This document shows, in pieces, positions 6,427-64,000 of a DNA stretch of 64,000 nt. The stretch is taken from assembly GCF_047663525.1 (NCBI RefSeq), contig NC_092606.1, forward strand, positions 4,896,501-4,960,500, in the 5' to 3' direction. The notes beneath the pieces were generated by a model. The model ran no database searches. It was not told the DNA's origin and saw only the letters and a program-made list of their open reading frames with translations. The DNA is from Anas platyrhynchos (taxonomy: Eukaryota > Chordata > Aves > Anseriformes > Anatidae). A program made the position numbers and the translations under genes. Numbering within the stretch: the stretch's first letter is position 1; the number at the start of each line of letters is the position of its first letter.

Positions 6427-12246
<5,820 letters not shown>

Positions 12247-44880: not shown

Positions 44881-47559
44881 GTGAGCGGCACGGTACGGAC
44901 CGGGAACGGCCCGGTACGGCCCCCCCCCGGGGTTTGTAACCCCCCCTCCCATCCTTTCCCGTGCTTTATAGGGGGGAGCGGTGGCATCGGCGAGGCCACG
45001 GCGCGGGCCCTTGCGCGCTGCGGGGCGCGCGTGGTGCTGGCTGCGCGCAGTGCGCGGCGCGGGGAGGCGGCGGCGCGCCGCATCCGCACGGTGAGAGCGC
45101 CCCCCCCGCGCACACACACACCCCGAAACCCCATAAAGCCCACCCCCACAGGGGGACGTCCCCGGGCATCCCAATAAATAACCCCCCCGGGCACCCCGCT
45201 GCACCCCCATGGATGGCCCTTGGGCACCATCGCCACCGTGCCCACCCCAGACACCCCCAGTGCACCCCCCCCAGTGCTCCACACACCCCCCAATTGCACC
45301 CCAAGGGCACCCCCTCGACACCCCAATATCCCCTATGGGACAGCCCGCTGCGCCCCCCACCCCGAGCACCCCCCTGAGTACCCCCAGTGCACCCCCCAGG
45401 CCTTCCTGTGCACCCCTCTGGGACATCCCCGGTGTACCCCCCCCCACAACACCCCCAGTGTACCCTGCCACCTCCAAAATCCCCCCCTGGCACCCCTAGG
45501 ACACCCCCATGGGACATCCCTGGGCACCCCCAGGACATTCCTTGGGCACCCTGACAGCACATCCCCAGTGTACCCCCCCAAAACCCCCAGTGCCCCTCCC
45601 CATACACCCCCGGTAACATCCAAGTACTCCCAGTACCCCCACATACAGCCCCAGTACCCCCTAAATACTCCCAGTGCCCCACCATTGGCCCCAGTATCCC
45701 CCAAGTACTCCCAGTACCCCCCTATACACCCCCAGTATCCCCCCAAGCACCCCCAGTACCCCCCATACACCCCCAGTATCCTCCCAAGCACCTCCAGTAC
45801 CCCTCCCAAACACCCCCACGGGACACCCCAAAGCACCCCCAGCACCCCCCTGCTGCACCCGCAGGAGACGGGGAACCCAGAGGTGCTCTTCATGCCCCTG
45901 GACCTGGCCAGCCTGCGCTCGGTGCGCGCCTTCGCCAGCGCCTTCCTGCGCCAGGAGCCCCACCTGCACCTCCTGGTCAACAACGCCGGTGAGCCCCCGG
46001 GCTGCACGGGGACCCCCCCAAAAAACCATCCCCAAATTTCCCCAACCTCCAGCACCGTCCCCACCTCCCGCTGCCCCTCCGCAGGGGTGAGCGCCGGGGG
46101 GACGACGGAGGACGGCTTCAGCCTCACCTTCCAGGTCAACCACCTGGGCCACTTCTTGCTCACCCAGCTGCTCCTGGAGCGGCTGCAGCACAGTGCTCCC
46201 AGCCGTGTGGTCATCGTCGCCTCCGCCGCGCACCGTGCCGGCCGCTTGAACCCCGCCGCGCTGGGTCGCCCGCCGCCCGGCCCCCTGCCCACCTTCCAGG
46301 GCTACTGCGACAGCAAGCTGGCCAACGTGCTGCATGCCCGCGAGCTGGCCACGCGCCTGCAGGGCACCCAGGTGACCGCCTACGCCGTGCACCCAGGTAG
46401 GGCCCCGCTGGGCACAGCTTCCTTCATGCGGTGCCTGCGTTGCACCTGTGCAGAGCGTGGGGTTTTTGCTTTGTGCATGGTGCAGTCTGTGCTCAGAGAA
46501 GTTCTTTGCACAGAGAATTCCTTTGCGTGGAGCATCCCTTTGCACGTTGCACCCTTTGCATGATGCCTTTTTTGCACAGCGCATCCTTTCCATGGAACAT
46601 CCTGGGTGCAGTGCATGCTTTGCATGGTGTGTCCTTTTGCACGGTGCAGGCCGTCCTTTTGCATGGAGCATCCCTCTGCACAGCTCAGCTTTTGCACAGG
46701 GTCCCTTTGCATGGAGCATCCCTTTGCACGTTGCGCCCTTTGCATGATGTGTTTGTTGCACAGTGCACCCTTCGCATGGAACATCCCTTCAGTGCGTGCT
46801 TTGCATGGCACATCCCCTTGCATGATGTGTGCTTTTGCACAGTGCCTGCCTTTGTGTGGACTGTCCTTTTGCATGGTGCATCCCTGTGCACTGCTCACCT
46901 TTCGCACAGCTCAACCTTTGCACGTTGCACCCTTTGCATCATGCTTTTTTGCACGGCACATCCTTGGTGCAGTGCATGCTTTGCACGGCCCATCCCCTCG
47001 CATGGTGTGTCCTTTTGCATCCCTTTGTGTGCACCGTCCTTTTGCACGGAGCATCCCTGTTCACAGCTCACCTTTTGCACAGTGCATCCCTTTGCACGAC
47101 GCATCCCTTTGCACAGTGCACTCCTTGCGCAGCGCATCCTTTTTGCACAGAGCCCCGTGCACTGCAGAGCAGCTTTGCAAAGCCGGGCCAAGCTCAGGCA
47201 CAGGCAGCACCCCGAGCAAACAGCACCCTGGGGGGGGGGGGTGTCCCCTTCCCCACCAGGCCCCGGCTGCGACACCGCCCCTTCCCCTCGCCCCAGGCTT
47301 TGTCAACACGGAGCTGTTCCGCCACCTCCCGCTCTGGCTGAAGCCTCTCTTCGTGCCCTTGGCCTGGCTCTTCTTCCGCGACGCCGCCGAGGGCGCCGAG
47401 ACCTCGCTGTTCTGCGCCACGCAGGAGGGCCTCGAGCGCTTCAGCGGCCGCTACTTCGCCGACTGCCGCCTGCAGGAGCCGTGGCCCCACGCCCGTGACG
47501 ACGCCGCGGCCCGGGAGCTGTGGGAGGCCAGCGAGAGGCTGGCGGGGCTGGCGCCGTGA
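44754..47559 (+). CDS. DHRS13: DHRS13, short-chain dehydrogenase/reductase 13, complete CDS
   Basis: NAD(P)-dependent SDR of the retinol-dehydrogenase-like branch. Five coding exons (44754-44880, 44972-45090, 45865-45988, 46085-46396, 47297-47559) give 314 codons. An N-terminal hydrophobic segment (residues 3-19) probably anchors it in the ER. The cofactor motif is T42-G-G-S-G-G-I-G49; NNAG is at 121-124; the catalytic Ser is S170 in VASAAH; the YxxxK motif is Y197/K201. The protein stops straight after ERLAGLAP, whereas the recalled human protein (377 aa) has a further acidic/Ser-rich tail. The gene is riddled with tandem repeats in introns 2 and 4. Identity rests on sequence and on position between PHF12 and FLOT2. 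Physiological substrate is not known to me. Confidence 0.9.
44972..45090 (+). CDS. DHRS13: DHRS13 exon 2: Rossmann glycine motif
   Basis: [20 protein letters not shown] through RIRT, residues 43-82. The intron before it is 91 bp. Donor GTGAGA; phase 0 out. Confidence 0.9.
45205..45860. repeat. C-rich minisatellite filling DHRS13 intron 2
   Basis: Degenerate units of about 20-22 bases, such as CCCCCAGTACCCCC alternating with ATACACCCCCAGTATCC and AAGCACCCCCAG. Almost no G occurs on this strand over long stretches. It ends at the exon 3 acceptor and explains the long Pro-rich ORFs in this interval. Confidence 0.85.
45865..45988 (+). CDS. DHRS13: DHRS13 exon 3
   Basis: [20 protein letters not shown] through LHLLVNNA, residues 83-123, with the conserved D-L-A-S-L and the NNAG motif (Gly split). 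The following intron (45989-46084) is 96 nt and stop-free in this frame. Confidence 0.92.
46085..46396 (+). CDS. DHRS13: DHRS13 exon 4: catalytic core
   Basis: [42 protein letters not shown], then [16 protein letters not shown] and AYAVHPG. It carries the catalytic Ser, Tyr and Lys. Phase 1 on both sides; donor GTAGGG. Confidence 0.93.
46400..47165. repeat. Higher-order TTTGCAY tandem array in DHRS13 intron 4
   Basis: A dense array of CTTTGCATGG, CTTTTGCACGG and GCATCCC words. The motif CTTTGCACGTTGC recurs near 46538, 46722 and 46916, with a related copy near 47090, showing a higher-order period of about 175-195 bases. It creates long Cys-rich ORFs in several frames that I treat as artefacts. 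The simple unit is close to a POU half site. Confidence 0.85.
47297..47559 (+). CDS. DHRS13: DHRS13 exon 5: C-terminus
   Basis: [52 protein letters not shown] and TGA at 47557-47559. It lacks the C-terminal extension of recalled human DHRS13. Confidence 0.9.
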
Positions 47560-48662: not shown

Positions 48663-48711
48663 ATGGGCAACTGCCACACGGTGGGGCCCAACGAGGCGCT
48701 GGTGGTGTCAG
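48663..48711 (+). CDS. FLOT2: FLOT2 exon 1: acylated N-terminus
   Basis: [16 protein letters not shown] plus a split Gly. Gly2 and Cys4 are lipidation positions in mammals. Donor GTACGG; phase 1. Confidence 0.97.
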
Positions 48712-54700: not shown

Positions 54701-57700
54701 GACAGTCTCAGCTCTTCCCTGCGGGCCCTGGGAAGAGTTTTCTGTGTTCATTATTTATCAGACACCTCAAGCGTGCTGGGATTCACCTGGGTGATGTTGT
54801 GGAGCGGGGCTTCGCAGCACCGTAAGGCAGCTGATGCAAGGTGCTCTCCCTGCTCCGAGGGGCTGGCAGAGCTGGTGACCCTTTCCTCAGTGCTCTGAGG
54901 TTGTTCAGCTTGTGCTTCACCCCGTTAGGGTGCGGGTTTTTCCTTGGCACATGTATGTAATCCCTCAATCTCTGTGCTTTGTGCCGCAGGTGGCTGCTGT
55001 GGCTCTGACGTGAAGCAGTACGTGTACGGAGGCTGGGCCTGGGCGTGGTGGTGCATCACCGACACCCAAAGGTAAGCAGAGCTCGGTTATTTGAGGTTTT
55101 AGGGTACAGGCTAGGCAGAGCTGCTCCAGCAGGGCTGTCAGCAGGATTTTTAGGAGCACAGGACTGGCCAGTACCCGAGAAACCACAGCTGAGCATCAGC
55201 CCAGCCCTCTGCCTTCATCTGCAGCCACCTCCGGGCCCTTCAGAGGAAGGCTCCCCCTGTACAGCCGTGGCAGGAGCAGCGTGGGCCCTGTCTCATGCCC
55301 TTGCTGTGAGAGACCCTCTGTTCACCCACACAGCTTCTGGCTGTCCTCTGTGAGTGCTGAGCTTGCCCAGGGCAGAGGTGCTGTGAGCACCGTGAGCCCT
55401 GAGCACCAGGAGGATTTGCCACGCTCTGCCCAGGGTGGCCCCAGCCCTCACCCCGCAGCAAACGGGCCCTTGCCCCCATAGCCTGGATTGCTAAAGGTGT
55501 GCTGACTGCTGTTGCCACAAGAGCAGACCACGTTCCTGTTTAAAACCACGGGATTTCCTTTCTCTCCCTTTCCTCAGCCGTGGATTCTGCTTGCTGCTCA
55601 TTACTGCTCTCAATTAACATGCTGTCATTGCTGCTGCCCCGCTGATGTAGCCCCTCATCCCTAGGACCTGTGGCAATGTTCCTAAGTGTGCCTCTGTCCT
55701 AACACCTCCCTCACGCTCCCTGATGCAGGTTTTGTCTATCTATGTAAAAAAAAATAGGGAAAAACCCAAAGACGTGACTTTTGGGGTTCTGCACTGAGGG
55801 AAGCCCAGCGGTTGCAATTAACCTTTTACCACCTGCCCTTGCCACCTCTCCTCCCTGCTCCCGTGTCACCACCAGCAGACAAAGCTAGCACACTGCTGCC
55901 CTTGCTCTGCAGACGATGCCCTCCTGCAGGAGCTGCTCACCCGGGGTCACCCAGCTTGCGTGGTTCAAAGGAGCCCTGGCTGCTGCTGGCGATGGGCTCA
56001 CGACGCCTCTGGGTCCTCTCCCGGCTGGCTGGCACGTGGGATTGCCACAAGGGATTGCTACAAGGGCTATGACAGCTCACTGGCTGCATGGAGAGACCCC
56101 AGCTAACACCCCCTGCTTCGGCCCGGGGTCCCTAGCGATGCTTGTGTAAGGTGGGAGGGGAAGGAAAGGCCCTGCGCTCTGGCACAGTGCTCGAGGAGTG
56201 CATTCGGTCTGGCTTCCTCCTCAAATTTTGGTTGCTGTTCCCGCTCGTCTCACGGTGGGAGAAGCCCAGAGAGCAGTGCAGGGCCTTGAGCTGCTGTTTG
56301 CAGGAGATGCAGCCCCATTCAGGAGGCTAAATTCAGCAAGGGGTGAGTCCAGGGCGAAGAACTGCCTGCCAGGAGCGAGCTGGAGGTCCCTGCATCGCCT
56401 GGCAAACGGGGCTCGGAGAGCACTGCCAGCATCCAAAAAAATCCTTTACTTAAAAATCTTTACCCCCAGCTCATGCCATGGGATACGGGGCTTAATTCTC
56501 CTTTGCAAACCAGAGTCTTGCCCAATCCCATAAGCTGCGCTCCACAAACAGAGCCTGCTGCATGCACGTGAAGAGCTGAGGCTGATTCGCAAAATGAGGC
56601 CAGCTTTTCTGGAGCTGCCGGTGCCGCGAGGAGGCAGCGGCCGTTGTGTCGCCATCAGCGGCACCCCGCCAGGTAGCACTGACCCGGGGACAAAAGGAAC
56701 AGTTAGAGCTGGCAGGGAGCTGGGCTCTTGCCCTGCCGCAACCTTGAGGATTGGGGAAAAAAAGTAAAAAATCCTGTCCTTGGTTAGGGGTCAGCAATAA
56801 AAGCCCGAGAAGCAGGGAACCAAGTGGTATTCAGCGTCTCAGGACAGCCTTGGAAGCACCTTCTCTCATCAATGCCTTAGCCAGGGATGTGTAGCCAGAC
56901 CCCTGGTGCTTTTATTTTGCTAGCCCATCGTACGTGTTGGCACAGAAGCGCTTAAACGATTACAAAAAGGAATTTTCTGTCTGTGAAAAGCACGGTGAGA
57001 GAAAATTCCAGCTGAATTCAGGGTGGCAGTGCGGGTGGGATCCATGGCTCAGCTTCAAATGGGATTTGGGGGGGATGAGACCCCATCCAGCCCCGTTACA
57101 GCATCTAGCTGTGATTTTTAAGCATGAGGGGGGCTGTTCTGGGCATTACGAAGTCCTGGGAGCGGGCAGAGGGAGAAATGAGAACAGGGCAGGGAAAAGC
57201 CGAGCCCCCCAAGTCCCGCCTGTCCTTTGCACCGAGTGTCTGACTGTCTGGTAACCGCTGTGTGTATTTGCTGTCCCGCCCTTGTTCCTCGCTGCTCAGA
57301 CTGTCTTTGGAGGTTATGACCATCCTCTGTCGCTGTGAGAACATTGAGACGTCGGAGGGCGTCCCACTGTACGTAACGGGGGTCGCACAGGTAATAACCC
57401 ACCGGCTTCCTCACGGCGCGGCTAACCCTTCTGCCTCTGGTTCCAGCAGCAGCAGCAGCAGCAGCAGGATGACCCAAAACGAGTGGTTTTCTAACGGGAG
57501 AGGGCAAATCTCAGAGCTCTCCTCTCCTTCCCCTTCTCCGGCCCTTGCTCCGAGGTGCGCTCCTCGGTCCGTGGGTAATGCAGACAGGTGCACACGGGGC
57601 AGATCCCAAATTCAGCTCCTTCCGACAGTGCTGCAGAGGTTTTCTCCGGCTGTGACCCTCCCCTCGGCAGCACTGAGCACATCTTGTGCCTGGTGGAGGG

Positions 57701-60700
57701 CAGAAAGGCATCTGCTTGTACACGGCCGGGCTCTGCACAGCCTCTGGGGAAGGTGGGAAGCCAGGATTTGTGCCACCTCACAAGGAAATCCGTGCACCCG
57801 TGGGGAAACTGCAGCTGTAGCCGGCTCTCTAGGTTTGGATGTGGGTTTCCACTGAGCCCTTCCTCCCCCACGTGGAGGCAGAGCCCGCTGGGGATGTTGT
57901 CACGTTTAACAGCACAGCACGGAGACCCTGGGGGAGTTGCAACCCAGAGTTGAGTGTTTGCTCAGCACTGCGAGCAGCTGCAAAGCAGCGTAGTGCTGGC
58001 ACCAACCCTCCCTGGGACTTGCACAGCATTGAAATTAATTCAAGGTGTGGGTTAGGCCATCGGAAGGCTCTGGAGCTGCAGCAAGAGCTTCAGGGTGCCC
58101 GATGCTGTGCAGGGACGGCCCCAAGGAGCTGGAGACTCGCTTCTCCTGTCTGCCTTTGGGTTACGGGACAGGAAAAATAGGGAGGGTGAGGCACTGAGGA
58201 AGCAGGTCTGTGTTAATGCCAGCCCAGCAGGGGCAGAGGCTTCCTGCAGCGCTGGGTTTGGCCAAGCAGGGTGTGCACAAGGTTACCCTGGGGGTGGTGA
58301 TGCCGGGTGGGCGCACCCGGGGTCCGTGCTGTGCTCTTAAACCTGACACCAGCCTCCCACGGGGTCCTGGAGCCGCGAGCTCCTGGCCACATTCCTGTGG
58401 GGTCACGGTCCCATTGCCAGCCTGGCTCCCGGCCTTTCCCTGCTGATAAATCACCTTTAAGCATGGTTTGGAAATTTTTTATTGGCCAAAGCATTTTGTC
58501 TGCCTCCGGGGACGGACACAGCCCCTGGGTGCCTCCCGTGCCTGTCTGACATTACCTGCGACGAGAGCTGCAGGTGGCCTGGGGCAGGAGATGCGAGGGG
58601 AGAGCTGAGCCTGTGTTACCTGGAAACGTGCAAATATTTTACGTTTTTTGGCAGGATTTCCCTAGAGATAATGACGTTACAGCCCAGGTGTGAGGACGTA
58701 GAGACGGCGGAGGGGGTAGCTTTAACTGTCACAGGTGTGGCACAGGTACAGTAACTCCAAACCATCCTTTCAGGAATTGCATGTCTCTAACCTGCGTCTG
58801 GTTTTTCCCCATTAAAAGGTTGCTGTTGTCCAGGAACAGAAGCCAACTGCTTTGAAAGAAATGTTTGATTAAAAAAAAAAAAATACCACGCTGTCCTCGT
58901 TGATTCCAGCTCACGACCGCATGGCCATGTTGTACGGGGGGGTGACCCCTCCTCTCCCCAAAATCATCCCTCGTTTTCTGGTGTCTCATTTGTCCACGTG
59001 GCAAATGAGGTGTGTGCTGGTGACTGATTTCTTTGTGAAATGCTGGTGTGCCCCTGGAGCTCTGTGTGACACCGCAGGACCGAGCAATTCCCTCCTGAGA
59101 TGGCGTCTTTCGGGTTGTTATCATCATTATTATTATTTTTATTATCATTAGCACGTGGATCTTGTAATTCACAGTGAGTTAAAACCTAAAGAAAGAGCTC
59201 GGTCCCTCTGGACGATAAAATTTGTACATAAAATTTCCGGCTTGAAAGGAATTTTGGTTCTTTCAAGCCTTCTCCACACATGAACTCCAGCTCGTGCTGA
59301 TTTAAACACCTGCATTTCCCAGGCTTTGGGGTGTGCTGCCCTGACACAGCTTGTCCCTGTGCCTCGGGCGGGACGCTGGCAGGAGAAGATTGCAGTGACG
59401 TACCCAAAATCTCACGTGCGTCAAGAGGCTCCCCCGGGAAGAGCCAGCCACAGCCCCTCGGGAGCGTCAGGAGGAATTCACCCAGCGCTCTGCAGGGCAC
59501 CAGAGTCCTCCTGAGGCTCGTTGGTTTGCTCTGAGCTGACACCATGGAGTAATTGTGTGTTGTCTGGTGCGTAGACAAGGATGTAAGCTCAGCCAGGAGT
59601 AGTTTTTTGGGTTCTTGCACAAGGCAAAGGGCTGGTCCTGCGCTGTGCTGTTCTTGGGAACGTGGCCGTGCCCAAGAGCCCCAGCACGGGAGCTCCTTGG
59701 GCTCCTCCTGGCTCCAAGGGTGGCTCTTGCTGGAGCCTCTGAGACAGGAGCAGCACAGCTCGGATAATTCCAGGGGCTGAGGGCATTTCCTTGCTGGTGT
59801 GAAGCATCCTCATTTTCATTTTTTCAGCTCTTTCTACCCATTTAGGTACTAACATGTCACCTAACCTCAGTGGTCTTCGCATGCTTGGCAAAATGCATGT
59901 GCCCATGGCTCCATCCCACACGTTTCAAAGCTCTGCAGTCCTTTCTGTCCTGCATTTGGTGACACCATTCAGGGGAGGTATTTCTGTGAAGCATTCCCTT
60001 TTTAGCTTAGTTTTGGGGCATTGCCTACAAAAAGTAGGCAGCGCACGCTGGCAAACGGCTGGACCACCAGGTGCCTTGATTAAAAACGCAGCTCCAAATT
60101 CATCTCATTTAGCTTATTCTTTTTTCCACCATTTGCTTTTTTTTTTTTTTTCTCTGCTGTCGATTCATTCATTTTAAAGACTTTACAACATTTAGGATTG
60201 TGAAATGTGGGGAATTACCATGCTGAAACATGCCAGAGACAGTTGGGTTTGGGAGGTACAGGGCCGAGTTTTTCTGAATTCTGCAGAAGTCCAGAGGGAA
60301 AACTTTTGAGGCAACCGTTTTTCTTTTAAAACCTTGTGCAAAAAAAAAAAAAAAAAAAAAAAAGCAAATTTACTACCAGATAAACACTTTTTTAAATGTT
60401 TGCTGCAATAAAAGAAGCGCTGAGTGTTCCCGAGGATGCTCTTTTTTAAAGCCACAAGTGAGGAGCACTCCAGTGGCCTCCTTCTCCTGTCAGCTGGGCA
60501 CTTGGGGTGCGGGGGACACTGCCTCAGACCAGCAGAGCTGTGTCTTCCACCCCATTTTTCTGAGCTTTGGGCTCATTGGATTATTCCTGCTCACCCCTTG
60601 TGGGGAACACAGCTGGTTGGAGCTGGACATGGCAGTATTGCTCCTGCAGGTGGGGTTGGTTTGTAGAGGCACTGCTGCCGTGCCAGCCAAACTCTCCAAT

Positions 60701-63700
60701 TTGGAGACGTTTGAAGATGCACCAACTGTTGCAGGGGAAAATGAGAACTGGAAATGAGCTGAGCACGAATCTCTCGGCCCTGTTTTGGTTTGCGTGGTGT
60801 TGAGCTGACTCCAGGCTGGTTTGGGTGTAGCAGCACCCGAATGAACCCGGTTTTTGGATTTGTTGCAGAGGCAGGACCCTTCCCTGCTCCCCGTGAGCCT
60901 GCTCTGTGCTCTGACCGTCCGCTCTGTGGCTCCCCAAAGGTGGGGTTGTTGGGAGAGGACACACACCGTAACCACTGCTGCTGAGTGTCATTAACACCAA
61001 GAGCCCATGGCGAGACCCTCGGGGTCCCTTTTGGAGGTCCCTGAGCCAGGACGATGCCGGGCAGCAGCAGTCCATGGGGCAGGAGGTAGGATGTAGCTTG
61101 CCTCTAGGATCTCCTGGGCCAGAGCCCTTCCTCAGCAGCAGGCAGTGCCCAGCCCCAAATTCTCCATGAGAGGGTGCTGTGGGACTCGCTCAGCACCCGG
61201 TGTCAATAGGGCCTGGCCAAAAGGAGCTGCCACCATTTGGGGCCGCAGCTCCCTGTGGCTGGCACCTGTAGGGCTCTGAATGCCAGAGGCGTGTGCTGCA
61301 TCTCCACTGCCTGGTGTGGAGGTTTAAAAATCCATAAGGATTTTTAACCCGTTTTGCTTTTAAAAAGGACCAGCAGGACATTCTTAAGACCTTGGCTCAT
61401 CTCAGCCTGGGGGTGGTGTCACAGCTGGAGCTGGCTGGGAGGTGAAAACGCAGCTGGGGTGGCTGTGCCCAGCTCTGGGGACCATTAACAGGTTGCAGGG
61501 AGTGGGACGGAGGGGTGCTGGTCACCACGCCTGATAGGAGTCACACAAAATGTGGCCAGGAGCTCCCAGGTATGCGCAGGGTGTACCTGGTGTGCTGCGG
61601 CCATCTCGTCCCCTCTCCTTGCAGGGAGCACCGAGCAGAGGCCCTGTTCCCAAGGTGTCCCTTGGGCATGCCAGGCTCTTCCTTGTGCTCTGCCTTTCAG
61701 AAAGAGTAATTCTAGTGAAGGAGGAGGGAGAGAAGGGTAATAAAATGGCTTTTGGACAGGGTAACGATAGAAAGTGCTCTCCTCCCAGGTCTGGTTTTGG
61801 TTAAGGGACTGAATGGGTAGTTTGGGGCTCTTTGGTGGGGTTGTTCTCAGATGTTGCAGGATGGATGGCCTCAGGGAGCACCTCTCCGTGCCGAGCCACG
61901 GTCAGGGTCTGGAGAGGTGCCTTCCCCGGCCTCAAACGCTGCAGCTTTGGCTCGGGAGGGCTCAGGTGTGCCTGCAGGGCTGTCCCCAGCAGCAGGGAGC
62001 AGGAGCCCACCCGTGGGGCAGGTGACGTGGCTCGGCACGGGGTCTGCTCAGCTTGGTCCTCGGAGCTCCGGTGGCACGGGGTCCTGGCAGCCTGGTGGTG
62101 GTGCTGCTGCTGCTGCTGCTGCTGTTGGGTGCACGTCCCACCACGGAGAGGCACATTCAGCCCTTTGTTTTTTGTCTCCTGTCTCCAGGTGAAGATAATG
62201 ACCGAGAAGGAGCTCCTGGCTGTGGCCTGCGAGCAGTTTTTGGGGAAGAACGTGCAGGACGTGAAGAACGTGGTCCTTCAGACGCTGGAGGGGCATCTGC
62301 GCTCCATCCTAGGTGCGGAGGGGCTCTTGCAGCCTTGAGGCAGTGCTTCCTCTGCTGCCCGCAGATGGGACAGCTGAGACGGTTCCTCCCTTGCAGCAGC
62401 TGCTGCTGGGTGTCGTGATAAATGAGTTTTCAGTGCCTGCAGTAAGAGATGTCCGAGTCCCCAGGGGTCGCAGGTAGCCTGTGCATGGTGGCTGTGCTTT
62501 GGAGATGTCGGCGTGGGCTGAAAAGGCACCGTTGTGCCCAGGCCTGACCTCGTGGTTGGAGAGGTTCTGGACAGTGAGGATGTTGCTGAGCTTAGCCCAG
62601 TGCTGCTGTTTTCGTGCTGCTTTTTTCCCCTAATAAAGTGCTTTCCCTGCCCTCCCTCTGCAGGAACCCTGACGGTGGAGCAGATCTACCAGGACAGGGA
62701 CCAGTTTGCCAAGCTGGTGCGGGAGGTGGCAGCTCCAGACGTGGGTCGCATGGGCATCGAGATCCTGAGCTTCACCATCAAGGTATGCCCAGGCGAGGGG
62801 CATGGGGCTGGGCTGCAGCCAGCCGTGATGTGACACAGGAGCTGAGCCTGGCCCTGTGCCCCTGCTGTAGGTGACTGCAGAGCTGTAGGTGACAACCTAC
62901 AGCCCTTTGGGGCTTCCCATGACAGCTCCCGTCCTGCGAGCCCCAAACAGGGCTGGTGGAGCTCAGTGATAGCCCAGCAGGCTGACACGGCCCTTTCTAA
63001 CCTGGCCCTAACAAATGGTGGCTGTGAGCTCCAGCAGGAGGGGAGCGAGATGGAGCAGCTCGTGTGAAATGACCACAGCTTATCTCCTCCTCCCCAGGAT
63101 GTCTACGATAAAGTGGATTACCTGAGCTCCCTGGGGAAGACTCAGACGGCGGCTGTCCGGAGGGATGCAGACATCGGGGTGGCAGAAGCCGAGCGAGACG
63201 CTGGCATTCGGGTGAGTCCCAGGACGTGCTGAGCTTCCCCGCAGCTGCCCGTTGTGCTCCAGCTGCAGGCTCTTGAGCTCTGCTCTCTGTTTGCTCTCCG
63301 CAGGAGGCAGAGTGCAAGAAGGAAATGCTGGATGTCAAGTTCATGGCGGATACCAAAATAGCAGATTCCAGGCGTGCTTTTGAATTGCAGAAAGCTGCCT
63401 TCACCGAGGAGGTCAACATTAAGGTGAGAGGTACCCGACAGCCCGCTGCTGTTCCCTGGTTTGTGGTGGCCTTGGTAGCTCTGGGGCTTTCCAGGTTCCT
63501 TCCTTGTGTGTTAGCAGAGCTAGAGATGGAGACCCCACGTTTCTGCGTGTGCTCCTCACAGCAGATTCCTCTCCTGCCCTGTTTGCAGCAGTTAGGTGGG
63601 ACTAGGAGGAGGTGGAAGGATGGGGAGGGTCACCCAAACTGAGCCCAGAGCTGGCTGTGCTCAAATAATAGCACAGAGAAGGACCCCGAGTCCAGCACTG

Positions 63701-64000
63701 GGGACACGGACATGTTCCCTGGGTGGGGACCTGGCCCACAGCAGGAGCCACATCTGGTTTAGAGCCTGCCAAGGGTCCTTGCGTCTGCATCCAGCAGATC
63801 ACAGCCAAGATCCCTTTTCTCCCCTCTCCTGCCTGCAGACTGCGGAGGCCCAGCTGGCCTACGAGCTCCAGAGCGCCCGAGAGCAGCAGAAGATCCGCCA
63901 GGAGGAAATTGAGATCGAGGTGGTGCAGCGCAAGAAGCAGATCGACGTCGAAGAGAAAGAGGTCATCCGGAAGGAGAAGGAGCTCATCGCCACCGTCAAG
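48663..64000 (+). CDS. FLOT2: FLOT2 (flotillin-2/reggie-2), exons 1-8, 3' incomplete
   Basis: Scaffold of flotillin membrane microdomains at the plasma membrane and endosomes; forms hetero-oligomers with flotillin-1. Exons 48663-48711, 54990-55071, 58655-58745 (alternative 57300-57390), 62189-62312, 62664-62782, 63098-63211, 63304-63423 and 63839-64000 join to 287 codons. Visible features: Gly2 myristoylation and Cys4, Cys19 and Cys20 palmitoylation positions (as known for mammals), the SPFH/PHB domain to about residue 185, Tyr163 (a reported Src-family site) and the start of the Glu/Ala/Lys-rich coiled-coil flotillin domain. The window ends inside exon 8. The Kozak sequence GCCACCATGG is optimal. 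The gene has two homologous, apparently mutually exclusive exons for residues 44-74. Confidence 0.98.
48712..54989 (+). other. FLOT2 intron 1 (6.3 kb), no coding evidence
   Basis: No exon or RNA gene recognised. A composition-distinct patch at 49037-49066 has TTAATTA twice. A short duplication of TCTTGAGCAACG-type sequence lies near 50608-50645. No interspersed repeat family was recognised by eye. Confidence 0.55.
54990..55071 (+). CDS. FLOT2: FLOT2 exon 2: membrane-associating hydrophobic segment
   Basis: [20 protein letters not shown] then WCITDTQ, residues 17-43, ending AG of Arg44. Cys19/Cys20 are palmitoylation positions and the Trp-rich stretch associates with the membrane. Phase 1 in, phase 2 out: the donor must join a phase-2 acceptor, and both 57300 and 58655 qualify. 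Confidence 0.97.
55072..57299 (+). other. FLOT2 intron 2, upstream part
   Basis: Noncoding. GCATG occurs at 57122-57126, about 175 bases before the alternative exon. The pyrimidine tract of that exon (GCCCTTGTTCCTCGCTGCTCAG) closes the interval. Nothing else recognised. Confidence 0.5.
57300..57390 (+). CDS. FLOT2: FLOT2 alternative exon 3a (mutually exclusive candidate)
   Basis: 91 nt, with acceptor GCTCAG ending at 57299 and donor GTAATA at 57391. It completes Arg44 and encodes [20 protein letters not shown] then [10 protein letters not shown]. Length and phases are identical to exon 3b, and 21 of 31 residues (44-74) agree. Differences are at 45, 49, 52, 53, 54, 58, 59, 62, 66 and 68, so Pro54 becomes Cys54. 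The intact frame, good splice sites and many third-position differences from 3b argue for purifying selection rather than a dead copy. It may already be present in transcript databases; I cannot check. Confidence 0.88.
57391..58654 (+). other. FLOT2 intron between exons 3a and 3b
   Basis: 1264 bases, noncoding apart from the (CAG)8. It is long enough that splicing 3a to 3b is not sterically blocked, so exclusivity must come from regulation or from decay of the frameshifted product. A GCATG lies at 58461-58465. Confidence 0.5.
57444..57467 (+). repeat. (CAG)8 microsatellite after FLOT2 exon 3a
   Basis: Eight uninterrupted CAG triplets starting 54 bases after the exon 3a donor. Complementary in the transcript to the (CTG)7 at 62104-62124. 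Confidence 0.95.
58655..58745 (+). CDS. FLOT2: FLOT2 exon 3b (canonical exon 3)
   Basis: Completes Arg44 and encodes [20 protein letters not shown] then [10 protein letters not shown], matching the recalled mammalian FLOT2 sequence. Acceptor TTGGCAG after a T-rich tract; donor GTACAG. Phase 2 in, phase 0 out. Confidence 0.96.
58778..58783 (+). promoter_or_regulatory. FLOT2: UGCAUG RBFOX-type element after exon 3b
   Basis: TGCATG, starting 33 bases downstream of the exon 3b end. RBFOX binding downstream of an exon generally promotes its inclusion, so neurons and muscle might favour 3b. Motif evidence only. Confidence 0.5.
60340..60363 (+). repeat. Poly(A) run, 24 bases
   Basis: An uninterrupted A tract in FLOT2 intron 3, flanked by TTGTGC and GCAAATTT. 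A simple repeat; retroposon origin is not supported. Confidence 0.8.
62104..62124 (+). repeat. (CTG)7 microsatellite before FLOT2 exon 4
   Basis: Seven perfect CTG triplets (preceded by TG), 64 bases upstream of the exon 4 acceptor end. Reverse-complementary in the same transcript to (CAG)8 at 57444-57467. Confidence 0.95.
62189..62312 (+). CDS. FLOT2: FLOT2 exon 4: SPFH domain
   Basis: [20 protein letters not shown] then [20 protein letters not shown], residues 75-115 plus split Gly116. The donor GTGCGG is weaker than consensus. Confidence 0.97.
62313..62663 (+). other. FLOT2 intron 4
   Basis: Noncoding, 351 bases, GC-moderate, with a pyrimidine tract before the exon 5 acceptor. Nothing else recognised. 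Confidence 0.5.
62664..62782 (+). CDS. FLOT2: FLOT2 exon 5: SPFH domain
   Basis: [20 protein letters not shown] then [19 protein letters not shown], residues 116-155. Phase 1 in, phase 0 out. Confidence 0.97.
62783..63097 (+). other. FLOT2 intron 5
   Basis: Noncoding, 315 bases. It contains a short repeat of CTGTAGGTGAC at about 62865-62893. Nothing else recognised. Confidence 0.5.
63098..63211 (+). CDS. FLOT2: FLOT2 exon 6: end of SPFH domain with Tyr163
   Basis: [20 protein letters not shown] then [18 protein letters not shown], residues 156-193, phase 0 on both sides. Tyr163 is the residue reported as a Src-family target in mammals. Confidence 0.97.
63304..63423 (+). CDS. FLOT2: FLOT2 exon 7: start of the coiled coil
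   Basis: [20 protein letters not shown] then [20 protein letters not shown], residues 194-233, phase 0 on both sides. The heptad-like charged pattern begins here. Confidence 0.97.
63424..63838 (+). other. FLOT2 intron 7
   Basis: Noncoding, 415 bases, ending in a strong pyrimidine tract before CTGCAG. Nothing else recognised. Confidence 0.5.
63839..64000 (+). CDS. FLOT2: FLOT2 exon 8 (cut by the window end)
   Basis: [40 protein letters not shown] and LIATVK, residues 234-287. The last base of the window completes a codon and no donor is visible, so the exon or gene continues beyond. Coiled-coil flotillin domain. Confidence 0.95.

Follow-up and report, generated by a model that had tools for sequence, protein, structure and literature searches.

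Our analysis of a 64,000-nt stretch of the Anas platyrhynchos genome (the window) indicates that two neighbouring exons of FLOT2, here called 3a and 3b, are very probably an ancient tandem duplication of one exon that has been retained as a mutually exclusive pair. Exon 3a (57300..57390) and exon 3b (58655..58745), both on the + strand like every feature given below, are each 91 nt long with an AG acceptor, a GT donor and a common phase, and are separated by an intron of 1,264 nt. Each completes Arg44 and encodes the same 31-residue stretch of the protein, residues 44-74, with 21 of 31 residues and 56 of 91 nucleotides identical between the two. In coordinates, lengths, splice sites and identities the pair is as the first-pass annotation had described it, as are the end of exon 2 at 55071 and the start of exon 4 at 62189. 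The gene begins with the coding part of exon 1 (48663..48711; 16 residues plus a G, from translation, with the end and the donor GTACGG taken from the DNA) and exon 2 (54990..55071; residues 17-43 plus the AG of Arg44). It continues after the pair with exon 4 (62189..62312), an in-frame partner of 3a and 3b alike, and exons 5 (62664..62782), 6 (63098..63211), 7 (63304..63423) and 8 (63839..64000), the last of which reaches the window edge, with coding going on past it.

Since 91 is not a multiple of three, a message with both exons or with neither is frameshifted. In the spliced sequence the first stops after 12 codons of 3b and the second has a TGA directly after Arg44, so the earlier proposal that only one of the two exons can give flotillin-2 holds. 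Because these stops lie many junctions before the end of the message, nonsense-mediated decay would be expected by the usual rule, and the frame itself would then enforce the choice of one at the protein level. 3a and 3b share several features of homologous mutually exclusive pairs, being neighbouring, homologous internal exons alike in length, phase and splice sites, of which the frame admits one. The same early stops fit a different use of the locus, in which messages with both or neither exon are made on purpose and then destroyed, lowering the amount of FLOT2. We regard such dose control as rather unlikely; it is compatible with mutual exclusion, but alone it does not account for 3a having been kept as conserved coding sequence. 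The first-pass annotation had also spoken of a built-in two-state switch, for which the sequence shows a coding constraint of one out of two rather than regulation. For Anas platyrhynchos, we infer the use of the 3a and 3b junctions from the genomic sequence.

The likeness of the two exons is not due to chance: in a tblastn search of the 64-kb window with the 31-residue 3b peptide, 3a is found at E = 4e-11 and the next best match at 0.098. Over the 1.26-Gb genome the same query gives, at a cut-off of E ≤ 10, three matches (all three candidates scored), namely 3b, 3a (5e-6) and one exon of FLOT1 (0.25), and the DNA of 3a has a single match, itself (one candidate scored). Synonymous sites between the two copies are saturated (pS 0.87) while dN is 0.25, which points to an old duplication with constraint on both copies and purifying selection between them. 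In the introns around 3a and 3b we found no co-linear homology apart from one short, marginal block after the donors. A recent duplication or an assembly artefact is thereby ruled out, given the synonymous saturation, the non-homologous introns and the single genomic place of each exon. Two further collections were searched for vertebrate DNA: viral_contigs gave a single match, only 16 residues long and chance-like, within an open frame of 523 codons on a viral contig, and genome_contigs gave no relatives among 30 candidate stretches.

FLOT1 of the same genome has a 91-nt exon with the phase and the equivalent protein position of the FLOT2 pair, but in a single copy, a tblastn search of 9.9 kb having found no second one. 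This exon shares 15 of 31 residues with 3a and 17 of 31 with 3b, against the 21 that the two FLOT2 copies share with each other. Because the FLOT1 exon is further from each copy than the copies are from one another, the duplication belongs to the FLOT2 lineage itself.

Moreover, both peptides are found in deposited proteins. The FLOT2 of 9L3G and that of 1WIN (domain only) are identical to 3b at all 31 residues, the match of the 3b query to 9L3G running end to end over residues 1-271, in agreement with the first-pass annotation, which had matched the second exon to the mammalian protein. The FLOT2 of 9BQ2 (chain A), from cages of human HEK293 cells, has instead the 3a peptide, in the same protein position as in the window, with the frame kept and 30 of 31 residues identical; 3a of Anas platyrhynchos and of 9BQ2 thus differ by one residue, position 68, which is Tyr in the window and Phe in 9BQ2, both aromatic, where 3b has Thr. 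The counterpart of 3a that was to be sought in another vertebrate is therefore at hand, and both peptides stand among the deposited mammalian FLOT2 sequences. The 3a segment of 9BQ2 lies in or adjoining a part that its authors except from the well-built model, which was started from an AlphaFold prediction, and for this reason the entry is a record that the 3a sequence existed, not proof by density. Each form thus has a deposited protein sequence, the 3a one being modelled in or near a poorly resolved part.

These entries also bear on whether 3a might be a decayed or unused exon-like copy, with FLOT2 always made from 3b, which we consider highly improbable. Such a reading would accord with 3b being the form in 9L3G and 1WIN, and with the 9BQ2 peptide being a modelled one in or beside the poorly resolved part. 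However, 3a has an open frame and both splice sites, its protein sequence has stayed close to that of 3b through the saturation of synonymous sites, and a dead exon should not remain so alike between duck and human. Given the 30 of 31 residues shared with 9BQ2, 3a appears to be neither a relic nor restricted to Anas platyrhynchos. Compared with the PDB sequences, 3a has changed at 1 of 30 residues, 3b at 0 of 30 and the remainder of residues 17-287 at 18 of 241, a difference that does not mark 3a as more or less conserved than the rest (Fisher p 0.70). The reading frame, the 3a peptide in 9BQ2 and the purifying selection between the copies together support mutual exclusion.

How could the choice between the two exons be made? 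The donors of 3a (GTAATA) and 3b (GTACAG) both have no G at +5, in contrast to the six other donors examined, those of exons 1, 2, 4, 5, 6 and 7, and we call them weak for this reason. Splicing regulators acting on these weak donors would then make the choice, with QKI as the best candidate. Downstream of the 3b donor, at distances of 33 and 42 nt, there is a TGCATG followed by CTAAC (58778..58791), which we take to be RBFOX-like and QKI-like motifs, but with 7 CTAAY and 4 TGCATG in 7,117 nt these candidate sites are within chance and we do not take them as a signal; the full ACTAAY is absent from the 300 nt on each side of both exons. A study of exons regulated by Qki in the embryonic cortex of the mouse includes Flot2 in a gene table (PMC6429586); the available part of its text does not name the exon. 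A further candidate is the element CTAACCCTTCTGCCTCTGGTT (57422..57442), 32 nt after the 3a donor, which resembles a block after 3b from 58787. With 80-nt flanks the similarity scores 19, reached by 7 of 500 shuffles, and with flanks of 100, 150 and 300 nt comparable scores are reached by 18, 30 and 153 of 500; the flanks upstream of the exons give no signal (383, 468, 188 and 173 of 500). A regulatory block shared by both donors is therefore marginal, and we do not take it as proof.

The choice could also be biased by RNA structure. Eight CAG units begin 54 nt after the 3a donor (57444..57467) and seven complementary CTG units precede exon 4 (62104..62124), so that pairing of the two would loop out 3b and favour 3a. 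Among 51,040 tile pairs between 55072 and 62188 this is the strongest (-59.0 kcal/mol as a tile, -66.1 for the whole arms; the best of 3,896 random pairs reaches -52.5), and it encloses 3b; there is in addition an imperfect inverted repeat between the exons (57892-57923 with 58323-58354). However, other tile pairs come near (-56.1), the tile of the inverted repeat ranks 13th, and each repeat is also able to fold on itself. Repeats of CAG and of CTG occur widely and change quickly in length. We think it quite unlikely that such a duplex sets the choice.

Still less probable, in our judgement, is a mechanical cause in which steric hindrance or U2/U12 incompatibility blocks the joining of 3a to 3b. 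Some known pairs do work in this way (57 possibly steric and 5 U2/U12 clusters in the available text of PMC5740500), and near 3b we saw no good branch-point motif, only a TTTAC placed 14 nt upstream of the AG. But with the nearest upstream AG 47 nt from the start of 3b, a local branch point is to be expected, far from the 3a donor across the 1,264-nt intron, and donors and acceptors are ordinary GT-AG. These sites and distances do not point to a U12-type site or to a branch point less than 50 nt from the upstream donor, and this cause is not supported.

In kind, the FLOT2 pair is ordinary and on public record. Tandem mutually exclusive pairs such as that of PKM (PMC7954323) are likewise ancient, homologous neighbours of equal length and phase with conservative swaps, although for FLOT2, unlike these, the accessible portions of the texts give no regulator or isoform function. 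The parts of the surveys available to us report 236 human mutually exclusive events (PMC9741552) and lengths not divisible by three in 377 of 629 clusters (PMC5740500). A full-text literature search, covering main texts, did not find FLOT2 described as such a pair, and a text search of the main texts, as far as available, of PMC9741552, PMC5740500, PMC7954323, PMC13247117, PMC4465641 and PMC7561204 did not find FLOT2. The main text of the 9BQ2 paper likewise makes no mention of an isoform. A sepsis study (PMC9205547) reports a FLOT2 isoform switch, between ENST00000394908 and ENST00000585169, and has FLOT2 (section 19) under ES and not in the mutually exclusive class; the available text does not state how these transcripts differ, and we do not accept the switch as proof of 3a and 3b. 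Whether 3a was new had been left open in the first-pass annotation. The human counterpart of 3a is on public record, as is human 3b, and this kind of swap is not new.

Either form matches Pfam Band_7 about equally well, with 76.5 bits (E 3.5e-21) for 3a and 77.3 bits (E 2e-21) for 3b, and is thus a flotillin-2 of the SPFH / Band 7 family. The ten differing residues, chiefly Q53L, P54C, A66P and T68Y/F, fall in a segment that opens the globular SPFH region and directly follows the N-terminus inserted in the membrane; here 3a brings Leu53, Cys54 and an aromatic residue at position 68 and has a slightly higher hydrophobicity. The fold would be left intact, and a few residues close to the rim that the flotillin cage turns towards the membrane would be tuned.

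More generally, it is conceivable, though we offer it tentatively and as the less probable case, that vertebrates have two kinds of flotillin cage, in which these residues, lying where the SPFH rim has its base, alter contact with membrane or cargo in a tissue- or stage-specific manner, 9BQ2 (3a) and 9L3G (3b) being different isoforms, unremarked at least in the 9BQ2 main text. The deposited cryo-EM cage models do carry different exon-3 peptides beside the part that enters the membrane. Work on flotillin-2 probably relies on one cDNA, most likely 3b, and if 3a were the main form in some tissues, then knock-in, rescue and structural work based on 3b only would cover half of the protein.

Our analysis places the 5' part of the flotillin-2 gene (FLOT2) on the + strand of the window, with exon 1 (ATG at 48663), exon 2 (54990-55071), two alternative third exons, 3a (57300-57390) and 3b (58655-58745), and then exons 4 (62189-62312), 5 (62664-62782), 6 (63098-63211), 7 (63304-63423) and 8 (from 63839); a query with human sequence finds that coding continues beyond the window edge on the same contig (stretch L011). 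Of 302 open stretches listed, ten were scanned, and two of them gave domain matches: 10049-11182 (+) to a Sushi repeat at E 2e-8 and 45178-46560 (+) to a segment of a short-chain dehydrogenase at E 4e-10. Both are probably exons of adjoining genes.

The first-pass annotation had claimed that 3a and 3b are homologous 91-nt exons of identical phase, of which a flotillin-2 message can use only one, and had called them a two-state switch; as a one-of-two coding constraint this finding is correct and well read. Each exon is 91 nt long and bordered by AG and GT, each completes the AG of Arg44 and terminates on a codon border, and the two peptides agree at 21 of 31 residues. At the DNA level 56 of 91 nt are identical, and 10 of the 20 identical residues following Arg44 are written with different codons. 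A search of the window with the 3b peptide recovers 3a at E = 4e-11, the runner-up scoring 0.098, and a search of the whole genome (1.26 Gb, 42 contigs) gives three matches at E <= 10, namely 3b, 3a and one FLOT1 exon; these values rule out chance resemblance. Exon 2 joined through either 3a or 3b to exon 4 stays open up to the window edge, with 270 residues translated in each case. Including both exons brings a stop once 12 codons of 3b have been read, and skipping both places TGA directly behind Arg44. A stop many junctions ahead of the message end leads to decay by the usual rule, and since both of these stops lie so placed, decay of FLOT2 messages carrying both exons or neither is expected. 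Separately, a short WAWWCITD stretch (L001:5001-5048), lying in an IMG/VR contig within an open frame of 523 codons, looks like a chance match.

Is 3a a living exon? A search of solved structures shows FLOT2 present in both versions. The 3b peptide, named in the first pass as the mammalian form, indeed occurs at 31/31 residues in PDB entries 9L3G and 1WIN, and 3a is found in the FLOT2 of another vertebrate, chain A of 9BQ2 holding it at 30/31 residues with Phe for Tyr at 68 as the sole difference. We regard 9BQ2 as human because its cages came from HEK293 cells (PMC11260169), and 9L3G is taken as human because it is identical to 9BQ2 outside exon 3 across aligned residues 17-287. Between the window and the PDB sequences, 1/30 positions differ in 3a, 0/30 in 3b and 18/241 in the remainder of residues 17-287, the rate in 3a not differing significantly from that of the remainder (p 0.70). 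A comparison of the two exons with each other gives saturation at synonymous sites (pS 0.87) and a dN of 0.25. Together with the human match, these values show that the duplication took place before this species and human diverged and that purifying selection acts on both copies; judged on sequence, 3a is very probably functional.

FLOT1 of the same genome (G000 C17:4787132-4789138, stretch L012) offers an outside comparison. Its only match, at C17:4787132-4787224, is a single 91-nt exon of the same phase as FLOT2 exon 3, and tblastn over the 9.9-kb C17 stretch found no second copy. This exon is identical to 3a at 15/31 residues and to 3b at 17/31, against 21/31 between 3a and 3b. It follows that the awkward length of 91 predates the duplication and that the duplication happened within the FLOT2 line. 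Among the ten residues that differ between 3a and 3b, FLOT1 shares three with 3b and one with 3a, and at the other six it matches neither exon, a faint hint that the ancestral exon may have been slightly more like 3b.

How might the choice be made? Regulated exons usually have weak donors. The donors of 3a (GTAATA) and 3b (GTACAG) have no G at +5, which, in a comparison covering exons 1-7, is present in those of exons 1 (GTACGG), 2, 4, 5, 6 and 7. Steric or U12 exclusion as the cause of one-of-two use was not supported. Flot2 appears, the exon unnamed, in a gene table of a study on exons under Qki control in the cortex of mouse embryos (PMC6429586). Past the 3a donor CTAAC occurs at 32 nt; past the 3b donor TGCATG occurs at 33 nt and CTAAC at 42 nt. 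These sites are within chance, because 7,117 nt hold 7 CTAAY and 4 TGCATG, and no full ACTAAY occurs within 300 nt of either exon. It is also possible that RNA pairing would loop out 3b: a CAG repeat in the intron after 3a (57444-57467) and a CTG repeat in the intron before exon 4 (62104-62124) enclose it and form the strongest complementary pair when 51,040 tile pairs from this region are compared. The 3a-3b intron itself contains an imperfect inverted repeat (57892-57923 / 58323-58354; 87.5% over 32 nt; duplex about -52 kcal/mol), with no other copies in the window at E <= 0.1.

From 3b to 3a the substitutions are I45L, I49V, L52I, Q53L, P54C, D58N, V59I, A62S, A66P and T68Y, four of the ten staying among Ile, Leu and Val. 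Mean hydropathy is 0.56 for 3a, 0.40 for 3b and 0.70 for the corresponding peptide of 9BQ2, which makes 3a slightly the more hydrophobic of the two exon peptides; it also carries an additional cysteine. The two forms score about alike against the Pfam Band_7 profile. In the domain scheme given by the review PMC11775717 (SPFH1, residues 1-47; SPFH2, 48-160), exon 3 starts at the SPFH1/SPFH2 border; there only SPFH1 enters the membrane, an assignment doubtful owing to low resolution. We infer that the swap would tune contact at the rim.

Two deposited flotillin cage models, 9BQ2 (chain A) and 9L3G (chain a), differ in the exon-3 peptide. As described in PMC11260169, native cages were used, model building began from an AlphaFold model, and the SPFH1 domains are excepted from the well-modelled part; the words 'isoform', 'splice' and 'exon' are absent from its main text. 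Given that starting model and the standing of SPFH1, 9BQ2 shows that a human 3a protein sequence was on record and does not tell the cage's form.

Homologous exons used in mutually exclusive fashion form a class that is well described: in PMC5740500, 377 of 629 clusters have a length not divisible by three, and PMC9741552 reports 236 human events, with bony-fish orthologues for >90% of the tandem ones. A search of six main texts (PMC9741552, PMC5740500, PMC13247117, PMC7954323, PMC4465641 and PMC7561204) finds no mention of FLOT2, and we expect it in the supplementary lists of those exon surveys. Full-text searches on splicing and on the cage structure, in literature outside most subscription journals, yielded no description of the pair as mutually exclusive among the papers examined; the accessible part of PMC9205547 files a FLOT2 isoform switch in sepsis under ES, the differing exons not stated. 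The FLOT2 pair is an instance of this known class, and 3a, the less familiar of the two isoforms, is already public for human. What deserves a look is which FLOT2 form the published cages contain, and the role and place of 3a use.
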